A DNA stretch of 64,000 bases from Pandoraea pneumonica (GTDB lineage: Bacteria > Pseudomonadota > Gammaproteobacteria > Burkholderiales > Burkholderiaceae), in contig NZ_CABPSK010000002.1 in the NCBI RefSeq assembly GCF_902459645.1, positions 372,001 to 436,000 of the forward strand, given 5' to 3'. The translations under genes were made by a program, and so were the position numbers. The notes under the pieces were generated by a model. That model did no database searches and had not been told where the DNA came from. It saw nothing but the letters and a program-made list of their open reading frames with translations. Of this stretch, positions 7,337 through 23,252 are shown one piece after another (the stretch's first letter is position 1; each line of letters begins with the position of its first letter).

Positions 7337-10300
7337 ATGCGCACTTTCAGACGTCAACCAAGCGGCCCTGAACAATTGGATAACTCGTCCTCGAAACCTG
7401 ACCTGTCTATCGACCCGTCGACCGACACGTCGGCTGATCCGTCGGCCAACCACGCCATTCGTATTCGTGGTGCCCGCCAGCACAACCTCAAGAACCTCGA
7501 CGTCGATCTCCAGACCGGTGAGATGACGGTCGTGACCGGTCCGTCCGGCTCCGGTAAGTCGAGCCTGGTCTTCGACACCTTGTTTGCCGAAGGCCAGCGC
7601 CGCTATGTCGAGACCTTCAGTGCCTACGCGCGCCAGTTCCTCGACCGCATGGACCGTCCGCAGGTCGATCATGTGGAAGGCGTGCCGCCCGCCATCGCCA
7701 TCGATCAGACCAACCCCGTGCGCAGCTCGCGCTCGACGGTCGGCACGATGACCGAGCTCAACGACCACCTCAAGCTCCTGTTCGCTCGCGCGGCGGCGCT
7801 GTTCGATCGCGAGACGGCGCAACCCGTTCGCCACGATACGCCCGAGACCATTTACGCCGAACTGATGGCGCGTACCGCGCAGGGTGACCCGCGTCTGGTC
7901 GTCACCTTCCCCGTGGAATTGCCGGGCAGCGTCACTGCCGATGAGGTCGAGCAATGGCTCTCCGCATCGGGCTACACCCGTGTGCAAGCCGAGCGCGAAG
8001 TCGTGAGCGCCACCGGTACGCGCAAGGTGCTCGACGTGGTGGCCGACCGCTTCCGGTTGCAAAACACCGAGAAAGCGCGCGCGATGGAGGCCATCGAGTC
8101 GTCGCTCAAACGCGGGCGCGGCCGGGTGAACGTCTACGTGCTCGCCGAAGAAGGCGAGCCGGACATCTGGCGTTACTCGCAGGACCTGCACTGCCCGGAC
8201 AGCGATCTGCATTACGCCGACCCGCAGCCGGCACTCTTCTCGTTTAACTCGGCGTACGGCGCCTGCGAGGCTTGCCGTGGTTTTGGCCGCGTGATCGGCG
8301 TCGATCTCGGTCTGGTGATTCCCGATGAGCGCAAGACATTGCGCGGCGGTGCGATCAAGACGATTCAGACGCCTGCATGGAAAGAGATTCAAGAAGACTT
8401 GCTCGAATACGCCGGTAAGGCGGGCATTCCGCGCGACACGCCCTGGTCGAAGCTCTCGGCCGAGCATCAGCAGTGGGTGATCGAGGGCGACCCGACGTGG
8501 AAGGGCGAGTGGAATAAACAGTGGTACGGCGTGCGCCGCTTCTTCGGCTATTTGGAGTCGAAGGCGTACAAGATGCACATCCGCGTGCTGCTCTCGAAAT
8601 ACCGCAGCTACACCACCTGCGAGACGTGCGGCGGCGCTCGACTCAAGACCGAAGGGCTGCTGTGGCGGCTGGGGTCGAAGGAGAACGCCGACGCCGTACT
8701 GCCGCCGTCGCAGCGCTTTATGCCGCGCGGGGTGTCGTGGACGCGCGCGCAACTCGAAGCGCTGCCCGGTCTCACGATGCACGATCTGATGCTCATGCCG
8801 ATTTCGCGCGTGCGTCAGTTCTTCGATTCGCTGACCTTGCCGTCGAGCCTGCTCGACGATGCCCTCAAGCTGCTGCAAGAGGAAGTGGGCACGCGATTGA
8901 AGTATCTGTGTGATGTGGGTATCGGCTATCTCACGCTCGATCGTCAGAGCCGCACGCTTTCCGGCGGCGAAGTCCAGCGGATCAACTTGACGACAGCGCT
9001 GGGCACGTCGCTCGTGAACACGCTGTTCGTGCTCGACGAGCCGAGTATCGGTCTGCATCCGCGCGATATGGACCGCATCGTGGCCGCCATGCACCGTTTG
9101 CGCGACGCGGGCAATACGCTCGTGGTGGTCGAACACGACCCGGCGGTCATGCTGGCCGCCGACCGCGTGATCGACATGGGGCCCGGCCCCGGCGAGCGCG
9201 GTGGACAGATTGTGTTCGACGGCACGCCGGAAGAAGTGCGGCATGCCGATACCCTTACGGGCAGCTATCTCGGTGGGCGCAAGCATGTGGCGAACGCGTC
9301 GAACTGGCGGGCGCGTCCGGTCGATGGCGAGACGCCGCGTCTTACACTCTCCGGCGCCCGAGAGCACAACCTCAAGCAGATCGACGTCGAGATTCCGTTG
9401 CAACGCCTCGTATGTGTCACTGGCGTATCGGGGTCCGGTAAATCGACGCTGGTGCAGGACATTCTGAGTCCGGCGCTCGCGCGTCATTTCGGTGATCCGA
9501 CCGAAGCCCCCGGGGCGCACGATGAACTGACGGGCGCCGAGCAGTTGTCTGGCGTGGTGTTCGTCGACCAGTCGCCGATCGGCAAGACGGCGCGCTCGAA
9601 CCCGGCCAGCTACGTCGGTGCGTTCGATGAGATTCGTAAGCTGTTCGCGGCCGAGCCGGTTGCGTTGCAACGCGGCTACAACGCGAGCACGTTCAGTTTC
9701 AACTCGGGGAATGGGCGTTGCCCGACCTGCGGTGGCTCGGGTTTCGAGCACGTCGAGATGCAGTTCCTGAGTGACGTGTACTTGCGCTGCCCGGATTGCG
9801 ATGGCAAGCGCTATCGCGCCGAAGTGCTCGATGTGAAGATTCGTCGCGCCGTGCCTGGCGAAGCGATGCGCGAGTTGAGCGTGTCGGACGTGCTCGACCT
9901 GACCGTGAACGAGGCAGTGAAACTGTTCTCGTCGGATCGCGATGTGCTGCGCGTGTTGCAGCCGATCGTCGACGTGGGGCTGGAGTACGTGAAGCTTGGG
10001 CAGCCGGTGCCGACACTGTCGGGCGGTGAGGCACAGCGTCTGAAGCTTGCAGGCTTCCTGGCTGAGGCGGCGCAGAAGAAGACGGCGAGCGGGCAGAAGG
10101 TCGCGCATCGCGGACGGTTGTTCATCTTCGACGAGCCGACGACCGGCTTGCACTTCGATGACATCGCCAAGCTCATGCGCGCGTTCGGCAAACTGCTCGA
10201 TGGCGGCAACTCGCTGTTGGTGATCGAACACAATCTCGATGTGGTGCGCGCGGCCGACTGGATCATCGATCTGGGGCCGGAGGGTGGTGAGGGCGGCGGC

Positions 10301-13300
10301 GAAGTGTTGTGCGCCGGGACACTCGCGGACGTGGTGGCGTGTCAGGGCTCGCACACAGGGCGTGCGCTGGCCGACTACGAACGCAACGTTGTGGCACCGG
10401 GGCAGGCCATCGCGGCAAGCCCAGCACGCGCAACGAGCGATGCGGGCATGCCGTTGCAGACCGCGGTCCGTGCCGCACGTGCGCATCGCAAGCCTGCGGG
10501 CGGCGATGCCATTCGCATCGTCAATGCACGAGAGCACAACCTGAAGTCGCTCGATGTGGACATTCCGCGCGGCAAATTCAGCGTGATTACTGGGGTCTCC
10601 GGGTCGGGCAAGTCGACACTCGCATTCGACATCCTGTTCAACGAAGGCCAGCGGCGCTATCTGGAGTCGCTCAACGCCTATGCGCGCTCCATCGTGCAGC
10701 CGGCAGGGCGTCCGGAAGTCGATGCGGTGTATGGCATTCCGCCGACGGTGGCCATCGAACAACGGCTGTCGCGCGGTGGCCGCAAAAGCACGGTGGCGAC
10801 GACGACTGAAATCTGGCACTTCCTGCGCCTGCTGTACGTGAAGCTTGGCATTCAGCATTGCATTCACGACGGTGCACCGGTGACGGCACAGAGTCCCGAT
10901 TCCATCGTGGCGCAGTTGCTGCGCGACCGGCGTGGACAGCACGTCGGCCTGCTCGCTCCGCTGGTCGTGGGCCGCAAGGGTATCTATACCGATTTGGCGA
11001 AATGGGCCAAGGCGCGTGGGCATTCGCACTTACGTGTGGACGGCGTTTTCCTGCCGGTCGATCCGTGGCCGAAGCTCGATCGCTTCCGTGAACACACCAT
11101 CGAGTTGCCTGTCGGCGACGTGGTGATTACGCCTGAGAACGAAGGCTTGCTGCGCACGCTGCTCGCGGCGGCGCTTGAGCAGGGCAAGGGCGTCATGCAT
11201 CTGCTCGCACCGCTCGACGGACTGGGCGATGCGATGACGGCTGAACAACCGGGTGAGGGCGTTGGCGAGATTGAAGTGTTCTCGGTGAAACGGGCGTGTC
11301 CGGTATGTGGCACGAGTTACCCCGATCTTGATCCGCGCATGTTCTCGTTCAACAGCAAGCACGGCTGGTGTACGACCTGCGTGGGCACGGGGCTAGCGCT
11401 CACGCGCGAGCAGCGTGAAGCGTTCGACGACACGGTGTTGGCGCAGGACAATCGCGGGCGTGAGCATTCGCTGCCGTCGGAAGAACAAGAGCCGGAAGGC
11501 GTGGGTGACCAGCCGTGTCCCGACTGTCACGGTGCGCGACTCAATCCGGTGGCGCGCGCGGTGACGTTCGACGAGGAAGCGATTTCCGATGTGGCGCAGT
11601 GGACGGTGACCGATGTTCGCCAATGGGTGCAAGGGCTGCATTTGCATGGCCGCGACGCGAGCATCGCCCGCGATCTGATCAGCGAGATTCAGGGGCGGTT
11701 GGAATTCCTCGAAGAAGTGGGCCTTGGCTATCTGACGCTCGATCGTGCGGCACCGACGCTCTCGGGCGGCGAGTCGCAACGGATTCGTTTGGCGGCACAG
11801 CTCGGCAGCAACTTACAGGGCGTGTGTTACGTGCTCGATGAGCCGACCATCGGTTTGCATCCGCGTGACAACGGCATTCTGCTGGGTGCGTTGCGCAAGC
11901 TCGGCGATCAGGGCAACACGCTGGTGGTGGTCGAGCACGACGAGGACACCATTCGTCGCGCCGATCACATCATCGATATTGGGCCGGGCGCGGGCAAGCG
12001 CGGCGGCACGCTCGTGGCGCAGGGCAGCGTGGCCGATTTGGCATCGCACCCGGATTCGCTGACGGGCAAGTTCCTGGCGCATCCGTTGCAGCATCCGCTT
12101 CAGCCGCGTCGCGAAGTTACCGCACCGAAGAAGGGCGCGGAGGCTGTGCCGCCGAATTGGCTGACGGTGCATGGCGCGACGCTGCACAACTTGAAGAACG
12201 TGACGGCGTCGTTGCCGCTGTCGCGGTTGACGGCGATCACGGGCGTCTCGGGGTCAGGCAAGTCGACACTCGCCCGCGACGTGTTGATGACGAACTTGCT
12301 CGATGCTGTGGGCCGTTCGGTGATGTCGTCGCCAGCGGAGCGTCGCGCGCGCAAGGGAACGGTTCGCCATGCGGTGAAGGCCGACGGCAAGCCGCGCGCG
12401 AAGTCGGAGGTCCCGGCAGAACCGCGCCGCGCCGTGACGCATGCGTGGCATGGTTGCGAATCCGTGACGGGTTGGGAAACCATCGATCGGGTGCTCGAAG
12501 TCGACCAGACGCCCATCGGCAAAACGCCGCGGTCGTGTCCCGCAACGTATATCGGCTTCTGGGACACGATTCGGCGCCTGTTTGCCGACACGCTTGAAGC
12601 GCGGGCGCGCGGTTACTCGGCATCGCGTTTCTCGTTCAATACGGGTGAGGGGCGATGCCCGGCTTGCGAAGGGCAGGGGGTGCGCACCATCGGCATGAGC
12701 TTCTTGGCCGATGTGAAGGTGCTGTGCGATGTCTGTCACGGGCAGCGCTTCAACGCCGAGACGCTGGCGGTGACGTGGCGCGGCAAGAGCATTGGCGACG
12801 TGCTGACGATGGAAGTGGACGAAGCGGTTGAGTTCTTCGCGTCGATGCCGAGCATTGCACACCCGTTGCAGTTGATGCAGGACGTGGGGCTGGGCTACCT
12901 GACGTTGGGGCAACCGTCACCGACGCTCTCGGGTGGCGAGGCGCAGCGTATCAAGCTAGTGACGGAATTGACGAAGGTGCGTGACGACATCACGCGCCGT
13001 GGTCAGAAAACACCGCATACGTTGTATGTGCTCGACGAGCCGACCGTGGGGCTGCATATGGCCGACGTGGCGCGCCTGATCAAGGTGCTGCATCGTTTGG
13101 TCGACGGCGGACACACGGTGGTCGTGATCGAGCATAACCTCGACGTCATTGCGGAAGCCGACTGGATCGTCGACATGGGACCAGAAGGCGGCAAGGAAGG
13201 CGGCACGGTCGTGGCGGCAACGTCGCCGGATGCCCTCACGAAGGTTGCAGCGAGCCATACCGGCGTCGCTTTGCGACCGCTGCTGGCGCAGACGGTGGCG

Positions 13301-13330
13301 AAGGTCGAAGAAGTCGAGTCGGTGAAGTAG
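7337..13330 (+). CDS. uvrA: Double-length excinuclease UvrA (four ABC ATPase modules)
   Basis: The product is 1,997 aa, about twice the usual 940, because two complete UvrA units are fused head to tail. UvrA is the damage-recognition ATPase of nucleotide-excision repair. Four Walker A loops are seen: GPSGSGKSS at about 69, and GVSGSGKST at about 694, 1083 and 1633. Four LSGGE signatures lie at about 540, 893, 1474 and 1864. The C-terminal zinc modules of both halves keep their cysteine pairs (CPTCGGSG...CPDCDG; CPACEGQG...CDVCHG). No motif looks degraded, so both halves may be active. As I recall, similar long forms are annotated in other Burkholderiaceae. A normal uvrA is expected elsewhere in the genome. 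It is monocistronic, with an upstream LexA box and a downstream terminator. Confidence 0.95.
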   Translation: MRTFRRQPSGPEQLDNSSSKPDLSIDPSTDTSADPSANHAIRIRGARQHNLKNLDVDLQTGEMTVVTGPSGSGKSSLVFDTLFAEGQRRYVETFSAYARQFLDRMDRPQVDHVEGVPPAIAIDQTNPVRSSRSTVGTMTELNDHLKLLFARAAALFDRETAQPVRHDTPETIYAELMARTAQGDPRLVVTFPVELPGSVTADEVEQWLSASGYTRVQAEREVVSATGTRKVLDVVADRFRLQNTEKARAMEAIESSLKRGRGRVNVYVLAEEGEPDIWRYSQDLHCPDSDLHYADPQPALFSFNSAYGACEACRGFGRVIGVDLGLVIPDERKTLRGGAIKTIQTPAWKEIQEDLLEYAGKAGIPRDTPWSKLSAEHQQWVIEGDPTWKGEWNKQWYGVRRFFGYLESKAYKMHIRVLLSKYRSYTTCETCGGARLKTEGLLWRLGSKENADAVLPPSQRFMPRGVSWTRAQLEALPGLTMHDLMLMPISRVRQFFDSLTLPSSLLDDALKLLQEEVGTRLKYLCDVGIGYLTLDRQSRTLSGGEVQRINLTTALGTSLVNTLFVLDEPSIGLHPRDMDRIVAAMHRLRDAGNTLVVVEHDPAVMLAADRVIDMGPGPGERGGQIVFDGTPEEVRHADTLTGSYLGGRKHVANASNWRARPVDGETPRLTLSGAREHNLKQIDVEIPLQRLVCVTGVSGSGKSTLVQDILSPALARHFGDPTEAPGAHDELTGAEQLSGVVFVDQSPIGKTARSNPASYVGAFDEIRKLFAAEPVALQRGYNASTFSFNSGNGRCPTCGGSGFEHVEMQFLSDVYLRCPDCDGKRYRAEVLDVKIRRAVPGEAMRELSVSDVLDLTVNEAVKLFSSDRDVLRVLQPIVDVGLEYVKLGQPVPTLSGGEAQRLKLAGFLAEAAQKKTASGQKVAHRGRLFIFDEPTTGLHFDDIAKLMRAFGKLLDGGNSLLVIEHNLDVVRAADWIIDLGPEGGEGGGEVLCAGTLADVVACQGSHTGRALADYERNVVAPGQAIAASPARATSDAGMPLQTAVRAARAHRKPAGGDAIRIVNAREHNLKSLDVDIPRGKFSVITGVSGSGKSTLAFDILFNEGQRRYLESLNAYARSIVQPAGRPEVDAVYGIPPTVAIEQRLSRGGRKSTVATTTEIWHFLRLLYVKLGIQHCIHDGAPVTAQSPDSIVAQLLRDRRGQHVGLLAPLVVGRKGIYTDLAKWAKARGHSHLRVDGVFLPVDPWPKLDRFREHTIELPVGDVVITPENEGLLRTLLAAALEQGKGVMHLLAPLDGLGDAMTAEQPGEGVGEIEVFSVKRACPVCGTSYPDLDPRMFSFNSKHGWCTTCVGTGLALTREQREAFDDTVLAQDNRGREHSLPSEEQEPEGVGDQPCPDCHGARLNPVARAVTFDEEAISDVAQWTVTDVRQWVQGLHLHGRDASIARDLISEIQGRLEFLEEVGLGYLTLDRAAPTLSGGESQRIRLAAQLGSNLQGVCYVLDEPTIGLHPRDNGILLGALRKLGDQGNTLVVVEHDEDTIRRADHIIDIGPGAGKRGGTLVAQGSVADLASHPDSLTGKFLAHPLQHPLQPRREVTAPKKGAEAVPPNWLTVHGATLHNLKNVTASLPLSRLTAITGVSGSGKSTLARDVLMTNLLDAVGRSVMSSPAERRARKGTVRHAVKADGKPRAKSEVPAEPRRAVTHAWHGCESVTGWETIDRVLEVDQTPIGKTPRSCPATYIGFWDTIRRLFADTLEARARGYSASRFSFNTGEGRCPACEGQGVRTIGMSFLADVKVLCDVCHGQRFNAETLAVTWRGKSIGDVLTMEVDEAVEFFASMPSIAHPLQLMQDVGLGYLTLGQPSPTLSGGEAQRIKLVTELTKVRDDITRRGQKTPHTLYVLDEPTVGLHMADVARLIKVLHRLVDGGHTVVVIEHNLDVIAEADWIVDMGPEGGKEGGTVVAATSPDALTKVAASHTGVALRPLLAQTVAKVEEVESVK

Positions 13331-16694: not shown

Positions 16695-16750
16695 GGCTTA
16701 TGCCTCGTCGAGAGAATGAAGTGACGGATCAAAGATGACTGAAGGACGGA

Positions 16751-17941
16751 TCACGAACGCTTGTCGAGCAATTCGCGAATCAGAGCCACCGCCCGGTCGA
16801 TTTCCTGCTCGGAATTGAAATAATGTACCGCCAGACGCGCCATGCGCTCGATGTTGAAGCGCTTGAGAATCGGCGTGGCCATGAAGTGACCGGCTTCGAT
16901 GATGACACCAGCGGCTTCCAGATGCGCCACGATGGCGTCGGCTTCGAGGCCCTTCACGTTGAACGGCACCAGGCTCAATCGTTGCTCGACCTTCGACGGC
17001 CCGTAAATCTCGGCGCCCGGCAACGTCTGCAATTGTTCGACGGCGTAACGCGTGAGTTGTTGTACACGGGCGTAGATGTCGGCCATGCCCAGCGACTGAG
17101 CGAAGGCGATCGCTTCGCCCATGCCGAGAATCGACGGCACGATCGGGCAACCAGCTTCCAAGCGCTTGGCAGTGGGCGGCAACGAGAGTGCACCCGAGGC
17201 GTCGATCGATGCATTCCACCAGCCGATCAATGCCGGACGCAGTTGCGTGATGAGCGCTTCGCGCACGTACAGAAAGCCGCTGCCTTCCGGGCCACGCAGG
17301 GCTTTACGCCCGCAAGTGGCGAGGAAATCGCAGCCGAGCGCGCGCACGTCGATCGGCACCATGCCGACGGTTTGCGTCGCGTTGATCAGCGTCCAAACGT
17401 TGCGCTCGCGCGCCAGCGCACAGATCGCGTCGATGGGTTGCAATGCGCCCGTCACGTTCGGCAGATGCGCCATCGAAATCAGTCGCGTGCGCGGCGTCAG
17501 ATACTTCGCCAGCGTGTCGACTTCCATCACGCCATCGGCGTTGGCGGGCACGACGACGACTTTCACACGACCTTGTGCCTGCAATTGCAGCCACGGGGCC
17601 TGATTCGAAATCATCTCGAAATCGGAGAGCACGACTTCGTCGCCGTCTTGCCAGTCGATGCCAGCAGCGACGAGGCTGATGGCTTCGCTACCGTTTTTGG
17701 TGAAGGCGATTTCCGACGCGTTGGCGCCAACGAAGGCTGCCGTGGCGGCACGCACTTGCTCGACACGCGCATACGTCTCGCGACGGAAGGCGGGCAGGTA
17801 CGGGCCGGTGCGAGCGGTCTCGTTGAGATACGCGGTCATCGTGTCGACGACACAGCGCGGTGGCACCGAGGCGGCGGCGTGATCGAAGTAGACGAGGCCG
17901 GGCGCGAGTGCGCTCTCGGCGGTGATGCGATTCAGATCCAT
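16751..17941 (-). CDS. Class V fold PLP-dependent enzyme with Asn in place of the PLP-binding Asp
   Basis: The product is 396 aa and resembles the cysteine desulfurase / isopenicillin-N-epimerase branch of fold-type I class V enzymes. Visible motifs are FDHAAASVPP, FTKNGSEAISLV, SMAHLPNVTGALQPID (the His expected over the PLP ring) and the Schiff-base Lys in CGRKALRGPEGSGFLYV. In this family the residue that pairs with the pyridine nitrogen is Asp (VDATQSVG in IscS). Here the aligned stretch reads INATQTVG, codon AAC, so it is Asn. It lacks an obvious desulfurase active-site Cys loop. Context with an oligopeptide transporter and PepE suggests amino-acid rearrangement, racemisation or beta-elimination. 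The substrate is unknown. Confidence 0.8.
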   Translation of the reverse strand: MDLNRITAESALAPGLVYFDHAAASVPPRCVVDTMTAYLNETARTGPYLPAFRRETYARVEQVRAATAAFVGANASEIAFTKNGSEAISLVAAGIDWQDGDEVVLSDFEMISNQAPWLQLQAQGRVKVVVVPANADGVMEVDTLAKYLTPRTRLISMAHLPNVTGALQPIDAICALARERNVWTLINATQTVGMVPIDVRALGCDFLATCGRKALRGPEGSGFLYVREALITQLRPALIGWWNASIDASGALSLPPTAKRLEAGCPIVPSILGMGEAIAFAQSLGMADIYARVQQLTRYAVEQLQTLPGAEIYGPSKVEQRLSLVPFNVKGLEADAIVAHLEAAGVIIEAGHFMATPILKRFNIERMARLAVHYFNSEQEIDRAVALIRELLDKRS

Positions 17942-18008
17942 CGAACTGTCCTACGGGGGTGAGACAAAGACAACGGGCGCGCACTGCAAACGTGCGCGCC
18001 ACTCGAAA

Positions 18009-19661
18009 TTACTTGGCCAACAACTTGCCGAACAGCAACGGCTTGAAGAAGCTGTACAGCGCATCGCCTGCAATGAAACCGGCAGCCAGCGTGCCGCAGG
18101 CCGATTCGCCTGCTGCGCCCCAGCGGCGCACGATCAGCACGCGCAGCACGAGACCCGCCGCGACGGCCCAACCTGCTGCGGGGCTCATCAGCAACAAGCC
18201 GGTGGCCATGAGCACACCCAACTGGCGCTTCGGGCCGCCGATCAATTGCAGCAGCGCGCCGGGAATTGCCCAGATCATCAACTGATGGCCGATATCGCTC
18301 GACACACCGGCTTCGATCGTGGCGGCATACACCTTGTCGACCGGCGGGAACATGTTGTTGGCAAAGAAGTGCGGATAGGCGAGCACCACGGCCACGGCTG
18401 CCACGCAGAAACCCAGCATACCGGCGTAGTACTGCTGCTTACGGCCTGCGCGCTCCAATGCCGGATCGGCACCGTTGCCACGCAAGATGAAGCCGGTCTT
18501 CAGGTCGTAGCCCATATCGGCAAACGCCGGGCCGGTGGCCGACGACAGACCGACCAGCAGGCCGAGGGCCGTCGGCGGGAAGCCGCACAACATGCCGATC
18601 ACCAGCGTGATGAGTGCCACGGCAAATGCCGGGAACCAGCCCGAATACATGGCCGCGATACCGACGATCAGTTCATGCGCGAAGGCCGCGAACGCTGCGA
18701 ACAGCAAGAAGCCGATCAGCATGCCCGGCGACATATGCGTGGCGAGTCCGGCGCACAGTGCGATGAGCAACGCGATACCGACATACGCCAGAAAGCTCGC
18801 GCCGAGGAAACCGACGAGCTTGCGATCCGAGACGGTGGGTTGATAGCCGTTCTCGGCTTGCGCGCCCTTGCGGTTGCCGCGCAGCACGAGGAACGTCACC
18901 TGAATGAGTGCGACGACACCGGCGCCGATCATGAAGCCGTGCGGCAAATAGATCTTGTTCAGGTCGACGTGCAGCAGCGGCAGCGAGTAACCCTTGATGA
19001 GCAGGCCCGCGCCGAAACTGCCGAGCGCCCAGATGTTGCCGATGAAGGCCACGCCGAACGCGGACATCGGAACGCCCAGTACCGAGCCGACGACACCACC
19101 GGCCACGCCGTACACGAGCAGACGTGCTTTCTTGCCGCCCTGATCGCCCGCGATGATCGATTCGGCTGTGGCGATGCCCGCAGGCCACGTACCCGTCGCG
19201 GGGAAGGCCTTCGAGTCGAAGACGCGGTAAAGCACCGTGCCGTCGAGGAACATGGCGATCATCACGCCGATGAGCAGCGGCACGATGAGGTCGGGACGTC
19301 CCATGGCAAACGGGATGCCGATGGGGATCATCAGGCTGTTCGACGCGCCGAAGGTGGCCGACGAGATGGCCGTCTGCACCAGATTCTGACGGTGCACCGA
19401 GCGGAACTTGCGCATCATCGCGATGGGCAGGCGGGCGACGAGCATGGCGAGCAGCGCGCCGATGATCGACGTGTTCGCCGAGATGCCGAGCGTGACGATC
19501 AGTTGCATGCCGATGATCGCGCCCGCGACCGAGACGGCCACCATGAGAAGCAGCGACGTCGGCTCGAAGACCGTGGGGTGTTTGCCGTCGAGCGGCGCGT
19601 AGGGAGCACCGGAGGGTGCGCCAGGTGGCTTGGCAGCGGCAGAGGGCGGGGCGGATTTCAT
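18009..19661 (-). CDS. OPT family oligopeptide/metal-chelate transporter
   Basis: The product is 550 aa, rich in membrane segments (for example LLLMVAVSVAGAIIGMQLIV, VPLLIGVMIAMFLDGTVLYR, LMIWAIPGALLQLIGGP). It fits the OPT/YSL family of proton-coupled inner-membrane importers for small peptides or metal chelates. A Pro/Ala-rich cytoplasmic N-terminus of about 35 residues precedes the first segment. It is second in the IclR-led leftward operon, 67 bp upstream of the PLP enzyme gene. Its substrate is presumably what PepE, the PLP enzyme and DUF1177 then process. Confidence 0.88.
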   Translation of the reverse strand: MKSAPPSAAAKPPGAPSGAPYAPLDGKHPTVFEPTSLLLMVAVSVAGAIIGMQLIVTLGISANTSIIGALLAMLVARLPIAMMRKFRSVHRQNLVQTAISSATFGASNSLMIPIGIPFAMGRPDLIVPLLIGVMIAMFLDGTVLYRVFDSKAFPATGTWPAGIATAESIIAGDQGGKKARLLVYGVAGGVVGSVLGVPMSAFGVAFIGNIWALGSFGAGLLIKGYSLPLLHVDLNKIYLPHGFMIGAGVVALIQVTFLVLRGNRKGAQAENGYQPTVSDRKLVGFLGASFLAYVGIALLIALCAGLATHMSPGMLIGFLLFAAFAAFAHELIVGIAAMYSGWFPAFAVALITLVIGMLCGFPPTALGLLVGLSSATGPAFADMGYDLKTGFILRGNGADPALERAGRKQQYYAGMLGFCVAAVAVVLAYPHFFANNMFPPVDKVYAATIEAGVSSDIGHQLMIWAIPGALLQLIGGPKRQLGVLMATGLLLMSPAAGWAVAAGLVLRVLIVRRWGAAGESACGTLAAGFIAGDALYSFFKPLLFGKLLAK

Positions 19662-19705
19662 CGGGTTGATTCTCGGAGGGACTTATCTGGCGAAATCGGA
19701 GCGGG

Positions 19706-20458
19706 TCAGTAAAAGCGGCGCATGAGCGACTGCACTTCGGCAAGTTCCTGACGCACGGCGGCGAGCATCTCGCGGCGCTTGTCGTCGGTCATGCGGAAGT
19801 CGGGGCCGGAGACGCCGAACGAGGCGAGGATGCCGTCGGTCTCGTCGAACACGGGCAACGCGAGGCCGAACACACCGTCGGCAAATTCGTTGGCCGAGTA
19901 GCTCCAGCCTTGCTCGCGAATGGCGGCGAGATCGGCGCGCAGGGCGTCCGGGTCGGTGATGGTGCTGCTCGTATAGCGCTTCAGGCCGTGTTCGAGAATG
20001 GTGTCGAGTTGGGCATCGGGCAGATGCGCGGCGATGACCTTGCCCGACGAGCCCGCGTGCAGCGCGAAGCGCGTGCCCGCAGCGACCGAGTATTTGATGT
20101 TCTGATCCGACTCGGCAATTTCGAGATAGACGGCTTCCTTGCCATCGAGCACGGCGAGAAACGCGGTCTCGCCGGTGTTGGCCGCGAGACGGCGCATGAT
20201 CGGCAGGATGAGATCGGAGAGGTGCAGTCCTTCACGCAACGACTGCGCGAATTCGAGAAAGGCCATGCCAAGCGCGTACTTACGCGACTTGCCACGCTGC
20301 GTGACGAAACCGTGCTGAGCGCAGGTCGCGAGAATGCGCTGGACCACCGAGTGGTTGATGCCGGTCTCCTTGGCCAACTCACGTACACCCCACGTCGGAT
20401 TCTCGGCGGTGAAGTGGCGCAATAGCGTCAGCGCGTTGTCGAGCGTCTTCAGCGTCAT
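19706..20458 (-). CDS. IclR-family transcriptional regulator
   Basis: The product is 250 aa from the ATG at 20458 (MTLKTLDNALTLLRHF). The open frame extends 26 codons further upstream without a family-like sequence. The N-terminal winged helix (GVRELAKETGINHSVVQRILATCAQHGFV) is followed by the IclR effector domain (LRRLAA-type helix, GKVIAAHLP, GWSYSANEFADGVFGLALPV). It is the first gene of the OPT/PepE/DUF1177 unit, 44 bp before the transporter, so it probably controls the operon and itself. An inverted repeat at 20480-20500 is a candidate operator. Confidence 0.92.
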   Translation of the reverse strand: MTLKTLDNALTLLRHFTAENPTWGVRELAKETGINHSVVQRILATCAQHGFVTQRGKSRKYALGMAFLEFAQSLREGLHLSDLILPIMRRLAANTGETAFLAVLDGKEAVYLEIAESDQNIKYSVAAGTRFALHAGSSGKVIAAHLPDAQLDTILEHGLKRYTSSTITDPDALRADLAAIREQGWSYSANEFADGVFGLALPVFDETDGILASFGVSGPDFRMTDDKRREMLAAVRQELAEVQSLMRRFY

Positions 20459-20479
20459 ATAATTTGTCTCTCTATTAGC

Positions 20480-20500
20480 ACCACTGTGTCTATATGTGGT
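20480..20500. promoter_or_regulatory. Candidate IclR operator (ACCAC-N11-GTGGT)
   Basis: A perfect 5-bp inverted repeat with an 11-bp spacer lies 22-42 nt upstream of the iclR-type start codon. The position suits autoregulation. The binding protein is inferred from location only. Confidence 0.4.
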
Positions 20501-20681
20501 ACATTTTAGAAAGGCAAAAATGGGGCGGCAACGCAAAATTCACAAATCTAGGGTAAACACCCGTGTCGCTTTTCGCCCATTTTTGGTGCGACGTGTGCTG
20601 AGAATCGCGTCGAAAGCCGCATGAATACTGGATCTGCCGGGCATTCCCGGTGAGCGCATGACGTCTCCCATGCGCCGAGAC

Positions 20682-20710
20682 AAAACGCCCGGACAAGTCC
20701 GGGCGTTTTT
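20682..20710. terminator. Terminator downstream of the GHKL gene
   Basis: ACGCCCGGAC and GTCCGGGCGT arms are separated by AA, with A4 on the left and T5 on the right. It can therefore work in both directions. For the leftward GHKL gene it lies 30 bp after the stop and would isolate that gene from the IclR operon. Confidence 0.8.
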
Positions 20711-20739
20711 CATTGGGCGAGAACGATAGGTCGAAGCGA

Positions 20740-22803
20740 CTAAGGTGTCGGGCGGCTGCCGCACGGCAAGCCGAGCCTGTCGAAGAACGCGCGGTTGCGT
20801 TCGTAGGCCGATTGCAACAGCCGGTCGTAAGAGATCACTTCGATGTACGTCTTGAAGTGGCTGTTGTAGCCAAAGAACCCCATCCCATCCATGGTCTCGC
20901 TCAGTTGCAGCATCTGGCAGCGTTGGACGACTGAGCGGGTGATGTCGCAGACGACGTAGCAAAAGCCCGGCAGAGACGCCGCGCCCGGTACGGGCCGACC
21001 ACCGGGTGTCGTGACGGACCCGGCGCGAATGCGCACCAGATAATCGATGGCTTGTTCGATGGGATCCTTGTCGACGCCGGCCGCTGCATCGTTGCGCATG
21101 GGGCGCTTGAGTTCGACCACGACGAGCGATGCCAGTGGCCCGTGCGCGCCGTCCGCCATCAACATTGGGCGGTCGAATACCTTCAACGCGCACAAATCGG
21201 GTCTGCGCCCGGAGTCGCAATCGGTAATCGGCATCGACTGCAACGGCTTGTCGCTCGCCAGATACGAGTGAAACGCCAGACGCTCATCGAGCAGCCACAG
21301 ATTGCCGTGCTCCGGATGCACTTCGTCCGAGCTCTTCCCCATCGGCATGAACAACTCATGAATCACTTCTTCACGTACAAAGCGACCGTCGTCGTCGCGT
21401 TGTAGCGCGCGTTCAAGAATTTCCAGAATGATCTTGCGATGGAAAACATAGTTCGCCAGATCGGACTGTTTGATGTCGCTCGCCTTCGCCATGTAACCCG
21501 CGAGGCGTTTTCGATAGGCTTCGGTGGTTTCGCTCGACGCGAATTGCAGGAGGTCGTGTCCCTCGGCAACGAGTGAATGCTCGACGTTGGCCAGTTCGCG
21601 ATGCAACAGCAGATCAAGATCCTTATCTGAGATGTCGGGCGGTACGCTCAGCCGGTCTTGATCGATATGAGGGAGTATCGGGCGGTAGCGGGGTGCACGA
21701 TGCGCTACGAAGCGCTCCACGCGGTCGCGGCTCGCTTGCCGGGTTTGGGCAAGCCACGGCGCGAGGTACCCGGTTGCCGCGGCCAGCAACGCATCGCGGA
21801 TATCGGCGCGTCCTGGCGACCCGTCGCCAAAGAGATCGTCCGACGACTCGGGAATATCGAAGCCGATGCGCTCAGGGCGCACATGCTGATCGAGCCAAGG
21901 CGACGTGACGTAGCACGCATAGGTAAAGTCACCCTCTTCGTCCTGCAATTTGCCGTGAAGCCCGGGTAATTTGCCACTCGCAAGCGACTCGTATTCGATG
22001 ACACGGCTCGCGGCACACCAAGCGATGGCCGGTTGCGTGACCGCGCTAGTCTTGAGTTTCACGTGGGTGATGACAAAGGGATGACCTTTGATGTCGAGCG
22101 TCTGGCGCTGCGCGCCGCCGAACAGGTAGTTGTCGTAGACGTCGGCGAGATCGATGCTTTCGTTGCCGTCACGCACCACAATGCGCGGCACGCCGCCGTC
22201 GCGGACGAAATACCAGAGGCAATGTTCGAAGAGACTGTTCGCGACGGCCCGCGCCGTCTTGACCGATTTTTCACGATAGCTCTGAAAGAAGCCCTGAAGA
22301 TGCACCGTGGTTTGGTGTGTGTCCCGGGCTTTGGCTTCGCGCACTTCGACGCTGCGGATGCCTTGCCGGGCGGTGAAATGAAACTGACGCCGCCGCGCGC
22401 GCGAGCGCCCGACCCGGAAGACGCTCGTCACCGTGACGCACTCGAACGCCTTGAGCCAGAGCAAGCGCCCCACGCCCCGGCAACCGTGGGCGGCTTTGTG
22501 GTCGCTGTCGAGCGTCTCGAACGAGGCCATGTTGGCGTCATCGAAACCCACGCCGTTATCGACGATACGAAAGCCGGAGATCGGGGCCGTGGGCGGTGCA
22601 CCGCGTCGCGACGTTGCCTCATCGAGGGCGAGGTCGGTCTGTGCGAGGCGTTCGATATCGATATGAATCTCGCCCCGCGCCGTGCCCGGCGCGCGATCCC
22701 CGACGGCATGGATCGAATTCACGACCGCTTCGAATAGCGGAAGCAGGCCTTTGTGCTGCGGCAGCGGCGTATTACGTAACCGCCCCGCTAAATTGGTGTT
22801 CAT
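20740..22803 (-). CDS. GHKL ATPase fused to a PD-(D/E)xK-like nuclease domain; candidate defence protein
   Basis: The product is 687 aa from the ATG at 22803. A GTG two codons upstream (22809) has an ideal AAGGGG-N7 ribosome site and may be the real start. The N-terminus is a Hsp90/MutL-type GHKL ATPase: N-box FEAVVNSIHA (E25, N29), DNGVGFD (82-88) and GCRGVGRLLWLKAF (107-120). The middle 250-500 is helical with no family I recognise. The C-terminus has RRPD (D536), VVVELKRP (E564, K566) and EQAIDYLV (Q584, Y588), the order of motifs II, III and QxxxY in RecB/Cas4-like nucleases. It is a single-gene unit between two metabolic operons, with its own terminator. Membership of the antiviral GHKL-nuclease group is inference; no homologue name is claimed. 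Confidence 0.75.
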   Translation of the reverse strand: MNTNLAGRLRNTPLPQHKGLLPLFEAVVNSIHAVGDRAPGTARGEIHIDIERLAQTDLALDEATSRRGAPPTAPISGFRIVDNGVGFDDANMASFETLDSDHKAAHGCRGVGRLLWLKAFECVTVTSVFRVGRSRARRRQFHFTARQGIRSVEVREAKARDTHQTTVHLQGFFQSYREKSVKTARAVANSLFEHCLWYFVRDGGVPRIVVRDGNESIDLADVYDNYLFGGAQRQTLDIKGHPFVITHVKLKTSAVTQPAIAWCAASRVIEYESLASGKLPGLHGKLQDEEGDFTYACYVTSPWLDQHVRPERIGFDIPESSDDLFGDGSPGRADIRDALLAAATGYLAPWLAQTRQASRDRVERFVAHRAPRYRPILPHIDQDRLSVPPDISDKDLDLLLHRELANVEHSLVAEGHDLLQFASSETTEAYRKRLAGYMAKASDIKQSDLANYVFHRKIILEILERALQRDDDGRFVREEVIHELFMPMGKSSDEVHPEHGNLWLLDERLAFHSYLASDKPLQSMPITDCDSGRRPDLCALKVFDRPMLMADGAHGPLASLVVVELKRPMRNDAAAGVDKDPIEQAIDYLVRIRAGSVTTPGGRPVPGAASLPGFCYVVCDITRSVVQRCQMLQLSETMDGMGFFGYNSHFKTYIEVISYDRLLQSAYERNRAFFDRLGLPCGSRPTP

Positions 22804-23252
22804 GCTCACGGGATATCCCCTTCGAAGGTGCACAAGGGTGGTGATGTCGGGGGGACTGGGCAGGATTGTGGATAACGCGACGGGGTGCTGCAACGCTTGA
22901 TGAGTGCCAAAGCTATTTTTCGGATTCCTACTACCGCGCGCTCATTTCTCACGAAGTGAAACGCCATATCGAATGCTGCAACTGCACACCTAAAAACGGT
23001 CGCTTCCCGCAAAGCCCCGTCGGGCGGATGTCATACGCAAACCCTTATGCCACCTATAAGCTGGGGTGGAGCCACGACTCGAAATCCCGGGTTTCCGAGC
23101 GGCGGTAGAACGATTACACTCAGGGTCTTATATAAGACTGCCCCTTTTCGTCAGCGAGCATGCGTCACCCGGACGTGCAACGCGTTTGCGGTGACGAATG
23201 AATGGTCCGGCGAAGCAGCGTCAAACTGGTTTTCAAACTCGAGTACAGCATC
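22804..23252. other. Divergent intergenic region between GHKL gene and glcB
   Basis: 449 bp that must hold the promoters of both divergent genes. The GHKL ribosome site AAGGGG lies near its left end and the glcB palindrome at 23125-23138. Short open frames inside (for example 22866-23108, +) lack ribosome sites. I see no further gene. Confidence 0.5.
23125..23138. promoter_or_regulatory. Perfect palindrome upstream of glcB
   Basis: GTCTTATATAAGAC is a perfect 14-bp palindrome 115 bp before the glcB ATG. A dimeric repressor/activator site, possibly of a GntR-type regulator of the glyoxylate/TCA genes, is likely. The regulator cannot be named from this sequence. Confidence 0.5.

Follow-up and report, generated by a model that had tools for sequence, protein, structure and literature searches.

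A Pandoraea gene joining a GHKL ATPase to a Shedu-like nuclease: a probable single-protein anti-phage system of a known kind

Within a 64,000-nucleotide stretch of Pandoraea pneumonica DNA (hereafter the window; contig NZ_CABPSK010000002.1, positions 372,001 to 436,000), a single minus-strand frame of 687 codons, running from an ATG at 22803 to a stop at 20740, raises the question of which function its protein could serve. The single protein has no match in Pfam or NCBIfam, it gives marginal rows at most against PADLOC and PHROGs, and a phmmer/profile search of PDB sequences returned weak matches (GTPase Der, E 0.0036; histidine kinases, E of at least 0.33). A first-pass annotation had proposed a new single-gene defence system, composed of a GHKL ATPase and a RecB-like PD-(D/E)xK nuclease. 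The analysis described here identifies the protein as a further example of a kind already reported under the names paraMORC3 and VcSduA, which probably acts as a standalone, ATP-gated nuclease for phage defence. The basis is computational, and comprises motifs, conservation, predicted fold, mobility, neighbourhood and the relation to Shedu.

The motifs were evaluated by aligning 89 full-length proteins: the window protein plus 88 relatives drawn from 125 genomic and viral loci that had been fetched, with identities to the window protein down to 24%. The translated gene carries DNGVGFD and GCRGVGR, and residues E25, N29, D82, G84, G86, G107, G110, G112 and R113 are invariant (89/89), as are R267 and R312 in the S5 region. 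At the nuclease site, E564 and K566 are also invariant (89/89), while D536, Q584 and Y588 are kept in 88 of the 89 rows. Such conservation at these identities places the named motifs far beyond chance, as judged from sequence. The residues singled out by the first-pass annotation (E25, N29, D82, R113, D536, E564, K566, Q584 and Y588) stand where it had put them; it overlooked E478, which is invariant (89/89) and completes an E-D-ExK set.

The AlphaFold2 model displays a GHKL and S5 ATPase of the Hsp90/MORC type (residues 1-357), followed by a helical middle and then by a PD-(D/E)xK domain, with structural alignments to Hsp90, MORC and SMCHD1 covering model residues 2-357, so that the proposed N-terminal GHKL ATPase is borne out by both motifs and fold. 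About 250 helical residues had been described between the two catalytic parts; by DSSP on the model, residues from about 332 to 466 are helical, whereas strand prevails as far as about residue 300, in the S5/transducer region. The nuclease domain (428-681), modelled separately by AlphaFold2, reached a predicted local distance difference test (pLDDT) value of 85.4 and shows the PD-(D/E)xK fold expected there. Its four best-ranked structural matches (VIA) are Shedu SduA chains, the fourth tying with N.BspD6I, and hhalign of the domain against SduA_C gave an E value of 3.3e-7, against 0.09 for the control. The motif set called earlier stands; a plain RecB/Cas4 nuclease appears less likely, as Shedu comes first by VIA.

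The likeness to Shedu SduA of E. coli (8ps4/8ps5) and B. cereus (8ti8/8ti9) lies in the nuclease domain, by structure and by profile, whereas the N-terminus of the window protein is a GHKL ATPase and the Pfam SduA_C cut-off is missed: one of 26 family members was matched, with E 0.15, below the curated threshold. As the Pfam Shedu cut-off is not reached, the protein is filed under paraMORC3 and its nuclease is called Shedu-like. PF14082 found no match in the organism's own genome, which is uninformative, since the control was likewise 0/14. Likeness to MzaB of the MZA system and TmtA of Tiamat is limited to marginal local matches of the PADLOC hidden Markov models (HMMs), seen in 4/26 members (best E 0.0086) and in 1/26 (E 0.0028), respectively. 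MORC proteins carry chromatin-reader domains, whereas the window protein carries a nuclease domain. MORC proper was ruled out by the S5 motif GhXhhpXXRhl (PMC2292703), which occurs in 0/89 rows.

Two published descriptions cover this architecture. ParaMORC3 was described by Iyer, Abhiman and Aravind in 2008 as GHKL and S5 domains followed by a C-terminal domain with RecB-family matches and an E-D-ExK set, sporadic and mobile in distribution, with a standalone subset in proteobacteria; in the accessible text it is a computational description without functional test (PMC2292703). The window protein resembles it in the GHKL domain with its motifs (89/89), the S5 domain after it and the C-terminal restriction endonuclease-fold E-D-ExK, and its family in the wide, sporadic and mobile distribution. 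VcSduA (A1552VC_00276, VSP-II of the V. cholerae WASA lineage), reported in 2025, protects E. coli and V. cholerae, was assigned to Shedu type I-D, requires both active sites, with E27 and K557 as essential residues, and has a phenotype that fits direct, non-abortive restriction (PMC12137116); it is also named in two later papers (PMC12409362; PMC12409358). It shares with the window gene a single-gene organisation, an N-terminal GHKL ATPase, a clamp-like middle and a C-terminal PD-(D/E)xK domain, and differs in its setting, beside GrwAB on VSP-II of V. cholerae rather than in a Pandoraea metabolic block. The columns equivalent to E27 and K557 are invariant (89/89), the equivalence to VcSduA being by residue numbering only; in 11 of the 89 rows, mostly gammaproteobacteria, the equivalent residues are numbered E27 and K556 or K557. 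Because the architecture is that of paraMORC3 and of VcSduA, the protein is of a known kind, and the earlier proposal of a new defence system had to be abandoned.

Is the gene distributed as a defence gene would be? Full-length matches, the window's own included, were found in 11 of 299 family genomes (two with one internal stop), and GTDB contigs of many phyla hold 550 stretches encoding relatives. Relatives also occur on plasmids (56 records), in one phage and on viral contigs (45 loci). The profile scan found these viral relatives, whereas the single-protein scan of viral contigs gave nothing; scanning the viral contigs for Shedu brought up no relatives, the gene region had no megablast match among plasmids, and a Rosenbergiella gene had no DNA-level match in any E. 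coli genome. The phage member, UXN81045.1 of vB_RanS_PJN03 (L016:2485-4509), is labelled N-acetylmuramoyl-L-alanine amidase and adjoins an integrase.

Neighbours were surveyed at 78 genomic loci (the best 80 of the 550 stretches, less L058 and L092, whose match ranges read with 35 and 39 stops), at 43 of the 45 viral loci (the partial L142 and L146 excluded) and in a hand-chosen set of 19 of the 56 plasmid records, 16 of them annotated, plus one phage record. Plasmid relatives with 44-50% identity lie beside a set of CBASS-like genes (Acinetobacter johnsonii), flanked by insertion sequence (IS) elements and 6.6 kb from an LlaJI restriction gene (A. schindleri), last in a type I restriction-modification (RM) operon (Salinivibrio), following RM and Shedu genes (Vibrio) or near type I RM (Rhodococcus). 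A defence-type gene was found within about 8 kb in 10 of the 16 annotated plasmid regions, a count without matched control that leaves out the Ti region. There, a divergent member (26.5%; L022:8061-10091) of an Agrobacterium Ti plasmid lies near VapC, TIR and trypsin-like genes; Agrobacterium accounts for 17 of the 56 plasmid records. In PADLOC scans of 120 sampled flanking frames each, near and far (297 near and 159 far families, the first 25 considered), the top profiles among the matches listed reached 7 (type IIG) and 5 (specificity) members near and 2 far. Among the Pfam matches listed, again the first 25 families, Methylase_S had 5 members near versus 2 far, and ResIII (4), N6_Mtase (3), HsdM_N (3) and Eco57I (3) appeared near only. 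Nine loci of the window's own clade have neighbours that look mostly housekeeping or mobile.

Within the genus, some match is present in 7 of 32 Pandoraea genomes and a full-length one in six: in four of them, the window's genome and three others with 88% matches, the gene occupies the window site, and two hold 30-32% homologues elsewhere, while one genome holds pieces. Malate synthase was matched in 28 of the 32 genomes, with the gene within 1.5 kb in 4/28; homologues at this locus in all close relatives, which the first-pass annotation had counted as refuting if unlinked to defence genes, were not what was found. In 14 of the 15 gene-free genomes fetched, peptidase S51 directly adjoins malate synthase (G028 differs), and the OPT transporter orthologue (at least 98%) is confined to the four carriers, with 57-59% paralogues in five genomes; the gene is thus part of a clade-specific block. 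Inside this block the gene probably has a history of its own. When the window is compared with its three sisters, synonymous divergence (dS) of the gene amounts to 0.95-1.03, while eight flanking genes have 0.28-0.61; among the sisters the values are 0.14-0.21 for the gene and 0.08-0.24 for the flanking genes. Given this contrast in dS and the matching contrast in identity between gene and flanks, an allele of just this gene was likely exchanged in the window's lineage, as read from sequence comparison. The divergence tract, delimited by comparison with G015 in 200-bp bins and by mean identities over ranges, is uneven, with one inner bin at 90.5%; residues 131-220 are the most divergent (75.6% identity, G000 versus G015), and the ratio of nonsynonymous to synonymous divergence is 0.05-0.07. 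Elsewhere in the genus, G019 has a divergent copy (L204:8846-12262) whose N- and C-terminal parts are separated by an inserted integrase/transposase frame, labelled IS3-like by eye. G018 is a 1.2-Mb genome of stated completeness 100%, grouped with genus members of mostly 4-6 Mb, and neither the gene nor malate synthase was matched in it.

The patchy carriage (4/28), the phage and plasmid copies and the defence-gene neighbours support a defence role. Taken with the fold, they make it very likely that the gene encodes an anti-phage system consisting of one protein, of the paraMORC3/VcSduA kind: a clamp-gated nuclease that cuts phage DNA without cell death. The GHKL and S5 domains would form an ATP-driven clamp, dimerising upon ATP binding as their Hsp90, MutL and MORC relatives do, and the helical middle would relay the state of the clamp to the C-terminal Shedu-like nuclease. 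During infection, a phage DNA structure or a phage protein may be caught by the clamp; the binding or turnover of ATP would then release the nuclease from inhibition, and the freed enzyme would cut phage DNA directly, so that the cell survives. We infer clamp loading, the trigger, phage DNA as the cut target and the same action by the window protein in Pandoraea, while the need for both active sites and the direct, non-abortive action would carry over by analogy from VcSduA (PMC12137116). Were the activated nuclease instead to destroy host DNA, cell death would stop the phage; such an abortive effector is improbable, the best-ranked structural matches being Shedu and not NucC.

The relation to RM systems calls for closer inspection. 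HMMs for HsdS, HsdM and HsdR were built from recurrent neighbours and labelled by sequence, by Pfam scan and by the annotated Salinivibrio and Vibrio operons. An Hsd gene lies within 3 kb at 26 of the 78 genomic loci, in 4 of the 20 plasmid/phage regions and at 2 of the 43 viral-contig loci. At 15 of the 78 genomic loci a same-strand hsdS ends no more than 100 bp ahead of the gene; wherever hsdS lies within 3 kb (18 loci) it is upstream and co-directional (18/18). The gradient with distance is modest (18, 9, 11 and 9 Hsd genes per 2.5 kb over 49 fully flanked loci), and the strong point is therefore operon adjacency, not general enrichment. Relatives directly after hsdS (at most 100 bp, same strand) are those of L037, L042, L044, L046, L049, L052, L053 and L057, and also of L063, L068, L069, L070, L072, L075, L077 and L010. 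The order hsdR-AAA ATPase-hsdM-hsdS-gene is common to the gammaproteobacterial L010, L063, L069, L070, L072 and L077, while other hsdS-linked relatives show hsdM-hsdS-gene-hsdR. The tree was built by FastTree only, with 45 of its 105 inner branches starred and 33 open. Neither hsdS nor hsdM occurs in the main text of the 2008 paper (PMC2292703), and no report of the linkage was found in a literature search that covered few subscription journals, so it may be in print.

These operons give some ground for an RM accessory, whose nuclease would choose its DNA by the presence or absence of marks from an unlinked methyltransferase, as the relatives in type I operons may do; Iyer and co-workers considered this possibility for part of the standalone paraMORC3 genes (PMC2292703). 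For the window gene such a role is less probable still than abortive action. Its own clade has an Hsd gene within 3 kb in 0/13 loci (two with short flanks), although two of the 13 (L033 and L034) have Hsd genes 5-9 kb away; among homologues, defence genes were seen beside plasmid copies and in hsdS operons, with little sign of them in this clade. A search for type I systems by HsdM_N, with types II and III outside its reach, gave no match in the window's genome but was positive in 9 of the 14 control genomes, and VcSduA reportedly does not depend on the adjacent GrwAB (PMC12137116). A housekeeping role in DNA repair or chromosome maintenance of the MutL kind is rejected as very improbable, for although MLH1 is the top Foldseek row and MutL likewise joins a GHKL ATPase to a nuclease, the distribution is too sporadic (full-length copies in just 11/299 family and 6/32 genus genomes), the gene is carried on mobile elements and its nuclease domain is Shedu-like, unlike the MutL nuclease described in PMC2292703.

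The features of the locus are collected in Table 1. The gene is flanked at one end by malate synthase and at the other by an IclR regulator and the OPT transporter. GTG 22809 may be its true start, because the Shine-Dalgarno-like AAGGGG is 7 nt from this GTG versus 13 nt from the ATG, and 47 of the 89 aligned rows, with start codons picked by script, have at least two residues ahead of Met1 of the window protein; E25 would then be renumbered E27. The terminator attributed to the gene earlier agrees with a stable hairpin 3' of it, although this hairpin is absent from the output of a consensus terminator scan. The window further contains, at 7337-13330 on the plus strand, an open frame of 1997 codons.

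Table 1. Coordinates of the gene, its predicted domains and its surroundings in the window
Feature	Position	Strand	Remarks
GHKL ATPase / Shedu-like nuclease gene, 687 aa, paraMORC3/VcSduA type	20740..22803	minus	single open frame
Candidate start GTG, +2 codons	22804..22809	minus	putative; AAGGGG at 22817-22822
GHKL ATP-binding and S5/transducer, residues 1-357	21733..22803	minus	N-box E25/N29, D82xG84xG86, G107-R113, R267, R312
Helical middle, residues 332-466	21406..21810	minus	DSSP on AlphaFold2 model
PD-(D/E)xK domain, residues 428-681	20761..21522	minus	E478, D536, E564xK566, Q584xxxY588
Hairpin then T-rich run, likely terminator	20670..20712	minus	RNA fold -20.6 kcal/mol, z -3.7
Clade-specific block (approximate): aminotransferase V, OPT transporter, IclR regulator, gene	16717..22940		between peptidase S51 and malate synthase
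Raised-divergence tract matching gene	20550..23000		81.6% vs 90.7-93.3% identity outside, against G015

This Pandoraea gene, unmatched in Pfam and NCBIfam, can thus be read, from sequence and model, as a probable single-gene phage defence with an ATP-gated nuclease, and the alignment would let defence finders detect a family for which PADLOC 2.0.0 gives marginal matches only. The question raised in the review of the 2008 paper, whether standalone paraMORC3 proteins rely on unlinked RM (PMC2292703), is answered in the negative for this genome, as far as type I systems recognised by HsdM_N are concerned. It is possible, if rather doubtful, that the family leads two lives, in which several clades sit in type I operons after hsdS, perhaps using the HsdM/HsdS complex or methylation as a self/non-self signal or providing a fallback in case HsdR is blocked, while the standalone branch of the window senses alone. 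The hsdS-linked subclade is the most interesting lead of this work, and a testable one, on how such ATPase-nucleases may discriminate self from non-self.
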